Shown here in pieces: positions 26,174 through 33,123 of a stretch of 43,361 nt of DNA (position 1 is the first letter of the stretch; each line of letters opens with the position of its first letter). Source of the DNA: Candidatus Enterocloster faecavium (lineage in GTDB: Bacteria > Bacillota > Clostridia > Lachnospirales > Lachnospiraceae); contig DWYS01000040.1 of assembly GCA_019118585.1 (NCBI GenBank), positions 1-43,361 of the forward strand, in the 5' to 3' direction. Made by a program: the position numbers and the translations under genes. The notes beneath the pieces were generated by a model, which was not told where the DNA came from, did not search any database, and saw only the letters and a list, made by a program, of their open reading frames with translations.

Positions 26174-26188
26174 TACATAATATGAATG
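26174..26188. promoter_or_regulatory. Shared leuC/ilvN promoter element, leuC copy
   Basis: TACATAATATGAATG, starting one base upstream of the predicted leuC -35. It matches 14 of 15 bases of 33109-33123 before ilvN, at the same distance (24 bases) from the -10. Probably a regulator site. Confidence 0.6.
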
Positions 26189-26250
26189 GCATCCATGAAG
26201 GCAGGTTATGTATCGGAACAGTCCGGACACCGAAGGAAGGAGTTTAACGT

Positions 26251-27132
26251 ATGGAGCAGAACCTTTCACAGTATAAGATCTTTTACGAAGTAGCCAAGGC
26301 AGGCAATATCTCCCGGGCTGCCAAGGAGCTTTACATCAGCCAGCCGGCTATCTCCAAAGCCATCGGCAAGCTGGAAGACTCTCTGGGGCTTTCTCTCTTT
26401 ACCCGCAGCTCCAGGGGCGTGCAGCTGACGGCAGAGGGAGAGATTCTCTACCAGCACACACAGGATGCCTTTGAGGCCCTGGAACGGGGGGAGCAGGAGC
26501 TGCGGCGCATCCAGGAGTTCGACATCGGCCATCTGCGCATCGGCGTCAGCACCACCCTATGCAAATACGTCCTTCTTCCTTATTTAAAAACCTTCATTGA
26601 CCAGTATCCCCACATGAAAGTGACCATCGAAAGCCAGTCCACCGGTCAGACCCTGGACCGTCTGGAGCAGCAGAAGCTGGATTTGGGGCTGGTAGCCGAG
26701 CCGACACCCCGCAAGGACCTGGTCTTTATCCCGGTCATGGACATCCAGGATATTTTTGTTGCCACCAAACATTATCTGGAAAATCTCTATCTGCGGGAAG
26801 GAAAAGATACCGATGTATTCAACACCGGCAATATTATGCTGCTGGATGAGAGCAATATGACCAGACGGCATGTAAACGAGTATCTGACAGAAAACGGCAT
26901 CTATCCCCGGCAGATCCTGGAAGTCAGCACCATGGACCTTCTGATCGAATTTTCCAAGATCGGCTTAGGCATCGGCTGTGTGATCCGGGAGCTGGTACAA
27001 AAGGAGCTGGATTCAGGCCTTCTGGTGGAGCTGCCCTTAAAGCCTCCCATCCGCCGCCGGACCATCGGTTTTGCCTACCACCCGGCCAATCAGGCCATGG
27101 CCCTGAAGACCTTTCTGGAGTTTCTCTACTGA
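26251..27132 (+). CDS. LysR-type regulator beside leuC
   Basis: A 293-residue LysR regulator, N-terminal helix-turn-helix with AGNISRAAKELYISQPAISKAIGKLEDSLGLSLFTR, then the effector-binding domain (from about residue 90). GAAGGAAGGAG lies before the ATG. It shares a 152-base upstream region with leuC, so control of leuCD is likely, and the shared element before ilvN suggests a wider branched-chain role. The effector is unknown; 2-isopropylmalate or acetohydroxybutyrate-like intermediates are effectors of other LysR regulators in this pathway (LeuO/IlvY types), which is only an analogy. Confidence 0.9.
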   Translation: MEQNLSQYKIFYEVAKAGNISRAAKELYISQPAISKAIGKLEDSLGLSLFTRSSRGVQLTAEGEILYQHTQDAFEALERGEQELRRIQEFDIGHLRIGVSTTLCKYVLLPYLKTFIDQYPHMKVTIESQSTGQTLDRLEQQKLDLGLVAEPTPRKDLVFIPVMDIQDIFVATKHYLENLYLREGKDTDVFNTGNIMLLDESNMTRRHVNEYLTENGIYPRQILEVSTMDLLIEFSKIGLGIGCVIRELVQKELDSGLLVELPLKPPIRRRTIGFAYHPANQAMALKTFLEFLY

Positions 27133-27165
27133 GGACGGACGCGGGATGGCTCCCTTCCATACAGC

Positions 27166-27215
27166 AGCAGGCTGCAGCTCCAGGATTTCCGTCATCCTGT
27201 CCGCTGCAGCCTGCT
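27166..27215. repeat. Nested inverted repeat between convergent genes
   Basis: AGCAGGCTGCAG (27166-27177) and CTGCAGCCTGCT (27204-27215) form a perfect 12-bp stem. Inside, CAGGAT (27181-27186) and ATCCTG (27194-27199) form a second 6-bp stem. No T-run follows on either strand, so it is not a standard terminator, although it sits between the LysR end and the DUF4234 end. Confidence 0.6.
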
Positions 27216-27248
27216 CGATCTTATATCCATTCTCTATCCAACAATTTC

Positions 27249-27656
27249 TTATGATACGGCGATGCCGTGCTCCCGTCCATACTCCCCGATCAGAGTGTTC
27301 ATATTGCGGATCAGCAGATAGGTTCCGTATAACGAGCCAAGTCCGCAAAGAAGTGCTCCAAACAGACACCATACCAGATAGGTCGTCCCTGTTTCATGGA
27401 ATTCCCGTCCGTAGCCTTTGGATGCATCCAGCATGCGGTTGCCCTGCTGATACAGCCAGAAATAATAAAAAATACCACATGTTACAATGGACAGCAGCAG
27501 CACCAGAATATAATTCATGCTGGGCTTGTCGTCCGGCACCTTCTCTGCGCAGATCTGGTTGAGATTTTCCGTGAAAACATACCAGAAGTAGATTCCATAG
27601 ATTCCGCAGGTGATGATGCTCAGCAGAAGATAGACCGCAAAGCTTCTCTGTTTCAT
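27249..27656 (-). CDS. DUF4234-type membrane protein
   Basis: A 135-residue membrane protein with three hydrophobic stretches (about 5-28, 46-70, 90-115). The N-terminal SFAVYLLLSIITCGIYGIYFWYVF and later LLSIVTCGIFYYFWLYQQG are repeated versions of the DUF4234 pattern (CGIY/F-FW), so it may have arisen by duplication. Function is unknown. It is 22 bases after the DUF2752 gene and probably in one transcript with it. Its promoter is upstream of that gene. Confidence 0.75.
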   Translation of the reverse strand: MKQRSFAVYLLLSIITCGIYGIYFWYVFTENLNQICAEKVPDDKPSMNYILVLLLSIVTCGIFYYFWLYQQGNRMLDASKGYGREFHETGTTYLVWCLFGALLCGLGSLYGTYLLIRNMNTLIGEYGREHGIAVS

Positions 27657-27678
27657 ATTCGTTCCCTCCGTTTATGCT

Positions 27679-31365: not shown

Positions 31366-32379
31366 TTAGTTGTTGATCAGCTTGTCGCTGTCATTCCAGC
31401 TGTACAGTTTGCGCAGATTCTGGCCAATCTGCTCCAGAGGCTGCTCAGCCTCTCTCTTTCTCATAGCATTGAAATGGGGGCATCCGGCCTGGTTCTCCAG
31501 CAGCCACTCCTTGGCAAAGGAGCCGTCCTGGATATCAGCCAGAATCTTCTTCATTGCTTTCTTTGTCTCATCGGTTACGATCTTGGGTCCGGTGATGTAA
31601 TCGCCGTACTCAGCGGTATTGGAAATGGAATATCTCATGCCGGCAAATCCGCTCTCATAGATCAGGTCTACGATCAGCTTCATCTCATGGATACACTCAA
31701 AGTAAGCGTTCTCAGGAGCATAGCCAGCCTCGGTCAGCGTCTCAAATCCAGCCTTCATCAGGGCACATACGCCGCCGCACAGAACAGCCTGCTCGCCGAA
31801 CAGGTCGGTCTCAGTCTCCACGCGGAAGGTGGTCTCCAGCAGTCCGGCTCTTGCTCCGCCGATCGCCAGTCCGTATGCCATAGCCAGGTCTTTTGCCTTG
31901 CCGGTCGCATCCTGATGAACGGCGATCAGGCAGGGGGTTCCTCTTCCTCTCAAATACTCGCTTCTTACCGTATGACCAGGAGCCTTGGGAGCGATCATGG
32001 TCACATCTACATCCTTAGGCGGTACAATCTGTCCGAAATGGATGGCGAAGCCGTGAGCAAACATCAGCATCATGCCGGGACGCAGATTGGGCTCGATGGA
32101 CTCCTTGTACATAGCAGCCTGCTTCTCATCGTTGATCAGGATCATGATGATATCTGCTCTCTTTGCAGCCTCAGCAGCGGTGTACACCGTAAATCCCTGC
32201 TCCTCAGCCTTCTTCCAGGAACGGCTTCCCTCGTAAAGTCCTACGATCACGTTGCAGCCAGACTCCTTCAGATTCAGAGCATGTGCATGTCCCTGGCTTC
32301 CATAGCCGATAACCGCAATGGTCTTGCCTTCCAGCAGTGACAAATTACAATCTTCCTGATAGTAAATCTTTGTAGACAT
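31366..32379 (-). CDS. ilvC: Ketol-acid reductoisomerase
   Basis: Class I (short) KARI, the second common step of valine and isoleucine synthesis. 337 residues; N-terminal Rossmann domain with [19 protein letters not shown] (about 23-41) and the GLYEGSRSW loop whose Arg and Ser suggest NADPH use; C-terminal knotted domain with catalytic Asp and Glu in [11 protein letters not shown] and [16 protein letters not shown] is before the ATG. It follows ilvN by 152 bases with no promoter that I recognise between, so it is probably read through from the ilvN promoter. Confidence 0.97.
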
Positions 32380-32523
32380 TCTTTTTTCCTCCTACACCTT
32401 TTTCTGTATCTCACCACAGCTCTAAAACTGCGGCGTGTTAAGGTGACAGAACTGACGACTCTCTGTCCGCCTCCCTCTGCGCCCCTTAGCTTTTGGATCA
32501 ACAGCCTGTCCTTTGCAGGAAAC

Positions 32524-32543
32524 GTTCTTCCTTATGGAAGAAC
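32524..32543 (-). repeat. Hairpin at the end of ilvN
   Basis: GTTCTTCC (32524-32531) and GGAAGAAC (32536-32543) form a perfect 8-bp stem with a 4-base loop containing the ilvN stop codon. A U-run is lacking, so it might attenuate transcription into ilvC or mark a processing site. Confidence 0.5.
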
Positions 32544-33035
32544 ACGGATATCTTCCGCTCCACGCTCCAGACCAGTAAGTCCCGTTCTGGCCAGCTCCAG
32601 AATCTCATAATCCTCCAGCAGGTTAATCAATGCATCCAGCTTGGACTGGTCCCCTGTCAGCATCACTGTCAGGGAATCTTTTCCCACATCCACGATGGTA
32701 GCACGGAAAATGTTGGAGATCGCACTGATGGCCGGGCGGTCATTGGCATTTGCTTTTACCTTTACCATCATCAGTTCCCGGTACACCGAAGCTCCCGGCT
32801 TCAGCTCCTTAATATCCCGCACATCCTCCAGCTTGTTCAGCTGATTCTTAATCTGCTCCAAAACCGTCTGATCTCCCAGAGAAACTACGGTCATCCTGGA
32901 ATAACGGGGATCGGCAGTGACGCCTACCGTCAGGCTCTCAATGTTGTAGCCCCGGCGGCTGAACAGCCCTGCCACCCGGGCCAGCACGCCCGCCGTATTG
33001 TCCACCAAAAGAGATAAAACTATTCTGTCATCCAT
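32532..33035 (-). CDS. ilvN: Acetolactate synthase small (regulatory) subunit
   Basis: The 167-residue regulatory subunit of acetohydroxyacid synthase, which gives valine feedback. The N-terminal ACT domain starts IVLSLLVDNTAGVLARVAGLFSRRGYNIESLTVG, and the second half has family sequence from about 85 on. The catalytic subunit (ilvB or ilvG) is not next to it in this window, so the subunits are encoded apart. GGAGAGG lies before the ATG. The gene has its own TTGACA-17-TATCAT promoter with an upstream element shared with leuC. Confidence 0.95.
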   Translation of the reverse strand: MDDRIVLSLLVDNTAGVLARVAGLFSRRGYNIESLTVGVTADPRYSRMTVVSLGDQTVLEQIKNQLNKLEDVRDIKELKPGASVYRELMMVKVKANANDRPAISAISNIFRATIVDVGKDSLTVMLTGDQSKLDALINLLEDYEILELARTGLTGLERGAEDIRVLP

Positions 33036-33078
33036 ATTTACACCTCTCCTCTCCCGTTATCCCGAACGGTTATATCTA

Positions 33079-33107
33079 ATGATAGCAATGGCCCTTCTGT
33101 TTGTCAA
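33079..33107 (-). promoter_or_regulatory. Promoter of ilvN-ilvC
   Basis: TTGACA (minus strand, 33102-33107), 17 bases, TATCAT (33079-33084), with TGC before the -10. Close to consensus. Confidence 0.8.
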
Positions 33108-33108
33108 T

Positions 33109-33123
33109 TACATAATAGGAATG
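33109..33123. promoter_or_regulatory. Shared leuC/ilvN promoter element, ilvN copy
   Basis: TACATAATAGGAATG, one base upstream of the -35 of ilvN. It matches 14 of 15 bases at 26174-26188. Here it is also part of a dyad, ATAATAG (33112-33118) and CTATTAT (33125-33131). Confidence 0.65.

Follow-up and report, generated by a model that had tools for sequence, protein, structure and literature searches.

A two-part candidate LysR-type operator shared by the leuC and ilvN promoters of Candidatus Enterocloster faecavium

In Candidatus Enterocloster faecavium the promoters of leuC and ilvN carry nearly the same 15-base-pair (bp) element at the same position, which raises the question of whether one regulator serves both the leucine and the isoleucine-valine genes. 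We analyzed a stretch of 43,361 nucleotides (contig DWYS01000040.1 of assembly GCA_019118585.1, hereafter "the window"), in which a first-pass annotation had noticed the element and had proposed the LysR-type gene divergent from leuC as the regulator. Both 15-mers are present as it described, TACATAATATGAATG at 26174-26188 and TACATAATAGGAATG at 33109-33123, and they are alike at 14 of 15 bases. Our comparisons of sequences indicate that the element is very probably the promoter-proximal half of a two-part site for the LysR-type transcriptional regulator (LTTR) encoded at 26251-27132, which would activate leuCD and ilvNC together. The LTTR gene is on the plus strand and encodes 293 amino acids. 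Its product is an LTTR by its domains, with an N-terminal HTH_1 domain (Pfam, 79.6 bits, cut-off 26.6) and a C-terminal LysR substrate-binding domain (LysR_substrate, 126.3 bits, cut-off 28). The solved chain closest to it by sequence is 5y2v, named as a Rubisco operon transcriptional regulator (E 1.2e-24).

The 15-bp element is only one half of a 39-bp site, the other half being equally distant in both promoters. Upstream of leuC, on the minus strand, the promoter-proximal, activation-type half (26174-26188) reads CATTCATATTATGTA and is centered at about -44, and the upstream, recognition-type half (26195-26209, ATAACCTGCCTTCAT) is centered at about -65. Upstream of ilvN, also on the minus strand, the element (33109-33123) reads CATTCCTATTATGTA on the coding strand and the upstream half (33130-33144) reads ATAACTTGAGTTTAT. 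The site can be written as ATAAC-N6-T(T/C)AT, exactly 6 bp, and (C/T)ATTCnTATTATnTA, and leuC(D) and ilvN(C) have it in one and the same register; the two centers assume that the first base of each predicted -10 lies at -12. LTTRs have a recognition site near -65, a T-N11-A dyad of the type ATAA-N7-TTAT, and a second site that adjoins the -35. The T-N11-A is present in the ATAAC...AT half, as expected of an LTTR-type regulatory region, and the two-part arrangement looks like the classic LTTR layout. The 54 distinct sites that we aligned all share, in the first half, ATAAC and the closing AT and, in the second half, AT, TTA and A. An 8-bp inverted repeat, ATACATAA/TTATGTAT (26173-26180 and 26206-26213), looked plausible as the operator at first; it was dropped as a unit because it combines a portion of each half-site and because its outermost bases are not constant among relatives.

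A match of 14 in 15 bases might come from a chance likeness of two AT-rich promoters, particularly since many promoters were open to the comparison made in the first-pass annotation. When the two intergenic regions were dinucleotide-shuffled, 21 of 4000 pairs reached it, at any place and on either strand, so that by itself it is only moderately unlikely and is suggestive, not decisive. Conservation in relatives argues that the shared element lies far beyond chance: both sites are kept in dozens of diverged relatives, which already refutes coincidence and leaves it a negligible probability. In the element's own genome (2.84 megabases (Mb), 86% complete), TACATAATANGAATG occurs without mismatch at only these two places. 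A mismatch-tolerant pattern search of that genome gave 21 matches, with 12 in the reversed-pattern control. A model of the site found two strong sites among the 150 of 961 first-look candidates that were scored, namely those of the window (E 4e-9 and 4e-7); the next match, at E 0.17, was partial. In all genome searches with the model only a share of the first-look candidates was scored: 150 in each genome or, in the 150 family genomes described below, 44 under stricter filters.

Near matches were considered as further sites and rejected. The one-mismatch sequence TGCATAATATGAATG (C128:7-21), the place C137:20349-20363 and the other two-mismatch places are without an upstream half, and a weight matrix run over the loci of near matches (L003-L021, L146, L147) gave nothing over 5 bits. 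From the weak genus-wide model matches, just some of which were fetched for follow-up, the match at G004:C1:2346228 (13.0 bits) lies inside an open frame, and those in G001:C9, at G007:C107:1640673 and in G011:C44 gave nothing over 5 bits by the matrix. Another of them, G004:C1:1215986 (L148:2000-2038), scores 22.6 bits, but it falls at the 3' terminus of a frame on the minus strand and has no TTGACA-like sequence following it; it was left out.

The scan of related genomes that the first-pass annotation had suggested bears out the motif. We fetched 74 public loci by their LysR orthologues from Enterocloster, Hungatella, Lacrimispora and other Lachnospiraceae, making 75 loci with the window, and leuC and ilvN fall inside the fetched flanks of many of the 74. 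The 39-bp site scores at least 15 bits upstream of 47 of 48 ilvN genes and all 49 leuC genes, the latter being orthologues more than 60% identical, divergent from lysR and with their start inside the locus (window included); the other 26 loci have no orthologous leuC beside LysR. Reversed-sequence controls gave no match at this score in either set. The sole ilvN gene without a site (L098) has just 69 bases of upstream DNA. Weaker sites were found at two ilvN genes (L086, 17.7 bits; L089, 17.6 bits) and four leuC genes (L081, L107, L108 and L111, 18-24 bits). Since these tallies include sites that trained the matrix, cross-prediction is the independent form of the test. A matrix built from leuC alone has its best match at the same place in 47/47 ilvN regions (39 at 10 bits or more), one built from ilvN alone has it at the same place in 49/49 leuC regions (48 at 10 bits or more), and the reversed controls of these searches contain none at 10 bits or more. 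A reversed control of 1.33 Mb had one match over 10 bits. Mean pairwise identity per 10-bp bin, calculated from 31 non-redundant ilvN promoters (of 44) and 37 non-redundant leuC promoters (of 45), is 0.60-0.96 in the site, against 0.25-0.30 in the 60 bases upstream; it is 0.49-0.89 over the 40 bases after the site, which hold the -35 and -10.

The site also occurs at leucine operons that are not beside the regulator. Four of the 17 genus genomes (G003, G007, G008 and G009) have no close leuC orthologue beside LysR, and all four of these Enterocloster have a leuD2-leuC2 operon, on a contig other than that of LysR, with the site upstream at 25-32 bits. Their leuC2 products have 45-47% LeuC identity in the three genomes with a reported match, and the TG of the extended -10 is at the same offset. 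In seven of eight Lacrimispora-group genomes a leuD2-leuC2 operon likewise lies on another contig and is preceded by a site of 33-35 bits. In total, a non-orthologous remote leuD-leuC operon carries the site in 11 of the 12 genomes examined. No remote site was used to train the matrix; those of G007 and three of the seven Lacrimispora-group genomes were detected by the matrix only. The Lacrimispora-group count covers eight of the nine loci with LysR away from leuC, and the leuC-less LysR loci left out of the genome follow-up were L074 (the ninth of these), L088, L096, L103 and L109. Sites retained on separate contigs argue for control in trans. Other LeuC-family paralogues have no site (13 loci: L164, L167, L168, L170-L179) or nothing over 5 bits (12 loci, L343-L354), and some of these site-less paralogues are the second pair of a tandem. 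In G008 a 13-bit trace is left beside lysR. The LysR gene is itself the divergent neighbor of leuD2-leuC2 in L063, L067 and several loci of the Hungatella type, and there the site adjoins lysR. Considering the LTTR geometry together with the leuC (49/49), ilvN (47/48) and remote-operon (11/12) counts, the leucine and isoleucine-valine regulon under the divergent LysR that was first proposed is the best-supported reading.

Two tandem leuD-leuC-like pairs lie divergent from lysR in L063 (7000-9883) and also in L067, L083, L085 and L087. Three of the L063 tandem genes were compared with NCBIfam and the fourth was judged by eye. The second pair of such tandems may have a role in another 2-hydroxyacid isomerization.

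In 20 further LysR-bearing genomes from other genera, leuC is divergent from lysR in 17, and 15 of the 20 score at least 15 bits beside lysR. L287, L289 and L297 (4-14 bits) have the same layout with a weaker form of the site, and L294 and L302 score below zero. For ilvN we hand-picked 40 LysR-bearing and 20 LysR-lacking genomes (the latter without a match at E<=1e-50) from 150 family genomes, of which 67 are LysR-bearing; close relatives whose sites were already known were excluded, and contig ends shortened two of the regions (L261 to 313 bases, L264 to 139 bases). The full site at ilvN reaches 15 bits in none of the 40 and in none of the 20. Only the palindrome of the upstream half, ATAAC-N5-GTTAT with at most one mismatch, remains in some, being found upstream of ilvN in 12 of the 40 LysR-bearing genomes and in none of the 20 LysR-lacking ones (one-sided Fisher p 0.004). 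On these comparisons the link to leuC extends widely and the full link to ilvN is seen only in nearer relatives; its absence from the 40 distant genomes marks the ilvN branch as a lineage trait.

That the full ilvN site is missing alike from the LysR-bearing and LysR-lacking sets would also suit a strongly conserved promoter or UP-like element that two biosynthetic operons share and that no specific regulator binds, as would the AT-rich sequence and the conservation that continues into the -35 and -10. Such an element does not account for the constant 6-bp distance to the upstream half and the invariant C of its ATAAC, for only two strong sites in a 2.84-Mb genome, or for a palindrome at ilvN confined to the LysR-bearing set, and we consider it extremely unlikely. 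It is also conceivable that another regulator binds the sites and that the adjacent LysR is coincidental. A second LysR-type gene (23452-24342, plus strand) lies just 2 kilobases away. It is convergent with leuD and divergent from a serine dehydratase alpha-like (SDH_alpha) gene (22059-23336, minus strand), which by position would be its own target. Relatives of this second LysR (E<=1e-50) were found in the fetched flanks of 11 of the 75 loci (10 besides the window), with none seen in the other 64, and a genome-wide relative (E<=1e-60) in just six of 15 genomes with strong sites, whereas relatives whose first LysR is as little as 42% identical still have it next to the site. Binding by another regulator is therefore very unlikely, and the LysR encoded at 26251-27132 remains the preferred candidate.

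Several results pull the other way and temper this assignment. The full ilvN site is lacking at 15 bits in all 40 distant LysR-bearing genomes. The exact ilvN palindrome occurs in 6/40 against 0/20 genomes (p 0.08), and its reversed control is found in one of the 40 LysR-bearing and one of the 20 LysR-lacking genomes. Model matches occur in 23 of the 150 family genomes, among the candidates scored, and all 15 genomes with a match at E below 5e-4 carry a LysR match (overall 67/150, E<=1e-50); three of the eight genomes with weaker matches are without the LysR, and in two more (G028 and G041) the model match is not on the contig of LysR. Because most strong matches adjoin lysR, the co-occurrence of site and LysR is partly linkage. 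No remote site was found in G169, where only a 41% paralogue lacking one turned up, and the near-identical Lacrimispora-group sites amount to few events. The G009 assembly breaks the leuD2-leuC2 frames that follow the site (L140:1777-3036), a leuC-like gene that is unbroken and lies elsewhere (L167) lacks a site, and a 28-bit site is retained beside a lysR with no leuC and an interrupted frame (L061:3861-4738). The adjacency of lysR and leuD2-leuC2 in L063, L067 and the Hungatella-type loci means that the remote sites could be relics left after a split or new gains, and some of them may be relics of this older arrangement. Finally, the sign of the effect is unreadable from sequence.

The promoters themselves bear on that sign. 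Upstream of ilvN (minus strand) are a -35 of TTGACA (33102-33107, 6/6 match) and a -10 of TATCAT (33079-33084) with a TG one base upstream. Upstream of leuC, also on the minus strand, the -10 is TAAAAT (26144-26149), extended by a TG one base upstream, and the -35 position has TTTTAT (26167-26172), a 2/6 match to TTGACA. At both, a single base separates the element from the -35, the spacer is 17, the -10 is at the same offset and TGC precedes it, in agreement with the first-pass annotation. In the 44 ilvN and 45 leuC promoters that score more than 24 bits and have full flanks, the TG is present in 44/44 and 45/45, and TTGACA in 44/44 at ilvN; TAAAAT or TAGAAT stands at the -10 offset in 44 of 45 leuC promoters, which together with the TG removes the earlier doubt over the choice of the leuC -10. 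The description of the leuC -35 as poor extends to relatives, with a mean of 1.98/6 over the 45 promoters and a best match of 4/6 in one of them. In the window this position overlaps the predicted lysR -10 (TATAAT, 26163-26168, plus strand), which follows a predicted -35 of TTTACA (26139-26144, plus strand) at an 18-bp spacer; the lysR -35 overlaps the leuC -10. They are kept in the leuC-strand consensus as ATTATA and TGTAAA, and the predicted lysR start point is at or next to the edge of the 15-bp element. We considered the poor leuC -35 as the mere price of this overlap, an explanation that is weakened by the remote leuD2 promoters, which are not beside lysR and also have no good -35 (TATTAT). 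A poor -35 in both places points to an activator-dependent promoter.

The LysR could instead bind both sites and mainly repress leuC and ilvN, or act as a leucine-responsive dual switch, and not be an inducer-dependent activator. With the consensus TTGACA seen in all 44, the ilvN promoter might need no activator. Against repression stand the poor -35 of the leuC and remote leuD2 promoters and a geometry typical of activation, in which the proximal half stops one base short of the -35 and the distal half lies near -65 (compare the regulators described in PMC5002191). We judge this alternative unlikely and continue to favor activation.

For an activator we can outline the following circuit. An LTTR tetramer would occupy the upstream half permanently; as a pathway intermediate accumulates, it would move onto or along the half beside the -35 and recruit RNA polymerase, giving strong activation at leuC, with its poor -35, and a boost at ilvN, with its consensus -35. 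When leucine is short, leuCD and the supply genes ilvN-ilvC would go up together. Because the predicted promoters of leuC and lysR run toward each other and overlap, and because the site covers the predicted lysR start or lies just beyond it, repression of lysR is expected, and the regulator probably represses its own gene. Our guess for the signal is 2-isopropylmalate, because it is the substrate of LeuCD, because no other target is kept as widely as leuCD, and because it reportedly increases LeuO binding in E. coli (PMC12494820). Acetolactate, which is described as an IlvY inducer (PMC5002191), would be the second choice. It is possible, and we propose it tentatively, that this is a 2-isopropylmalate-sensing regulator, present in many genera of the Lachnospiraceae, that at first controlled leuCD only and was later extended to ilvN-ilvC in the Enterocloster/Hungatella/Lacrimispora lineage, that it drives the acetolactate synthase regulatory subunit, and that its site stays with the working isopropylmalate isomerase operon after gene replacement. 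If so, leucine demand would be coupled through that subunit to how sensitive the entire branched-chain pathway is to feedback.

All four putative target genes are on the minus strand. The gene at 24830-26098 is leuC, for the large subunit of 3-isopropylmalate dehydratase (TIGR02083, 743 bits, cut-off 611), and leuD, for the small subunit, is at 24329-24814 (TIGR02084, 265 bits, cut-off 246). The small (regulatory) subunit of acetolactate synthase is encoded by ilvN (32532-33035, 206 bits, cut-off 119), with ilvC, for ketol-acid reductoisomerase, downstream on the same strand (31366-32379). The adjoining ilvN and ilvC (31366-33035) have no ilvB among the tested neighbor frames; the genome was not searched for the large subunit. 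A histidine kinase gene (HisKA, HATPase_c; 28910-30580, plus strand) lies between the leu and ilv operons.

Accounts of branched-chain amino acid synthesis in Firmicutes usually center on CodY and T-boxes, which control the same pathway genes as those considered here. The window has no Rfam match at the gathering score, and no T-box (RF00230) lies upstream of leuC or ilvN; the genome has eight T-box matches, five of them over the cut-off, and none on the contig of the window (C139). Among the matches listed in a search of open-licence literature, which does not include RegPrecise, no title or abstract opening describes leuC and ilvN under the control of an LTTR in Clostridia or Lachnospiraceae. 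Switches of this kind are familiar, but this particular circuit was not found described. A defined 39-bp operator with a dedicated LTTR makes the circuit directly testable and provides a precise annotation motif for gut Lachnospiraceae, and the remote operons clearly exemplify the retention of a binding site at a non-orthologous target operon on another contig.

LeuO, which accompanies leuABCD in E. coli, is also an LTTR beside leucine genes and is reported to respond to 2-isopropylmalate (PMC12494820). If 2-isopropylmalate is the signal here as well, it would parallel that recent report in an unrelated phylum. The same source presents LeuO as an antagonist of H-NS that has more than 100 targets, in contrast to the two strong genome sites found here, and no LeuO model is among the best 25 of the 56 NCBIfam matches of our LysR protein. 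For oxyS, inverted repeats are reported at -66, -44 and -35 (PMC5002191). A further likeness is to IlvY and ilvC of E. coli, where an LTTR with divergent, overlapping promoters is reported to bind two operators at ilvC, to activate a branched-chain gene and to repress itself (PMC5002191). The LysR protein is not an IlvY equivalog, scoring 103.4 bits with NCBIfam NF008722 against a curated cut-off of 246, and its half-site, ATAAC...TAT, differs from that of IlvY, A[C/T]ATTGCAA. The regulator of the window differs from IlvY further in standing beside leuC and not ilvC, and in having two separate target operons.

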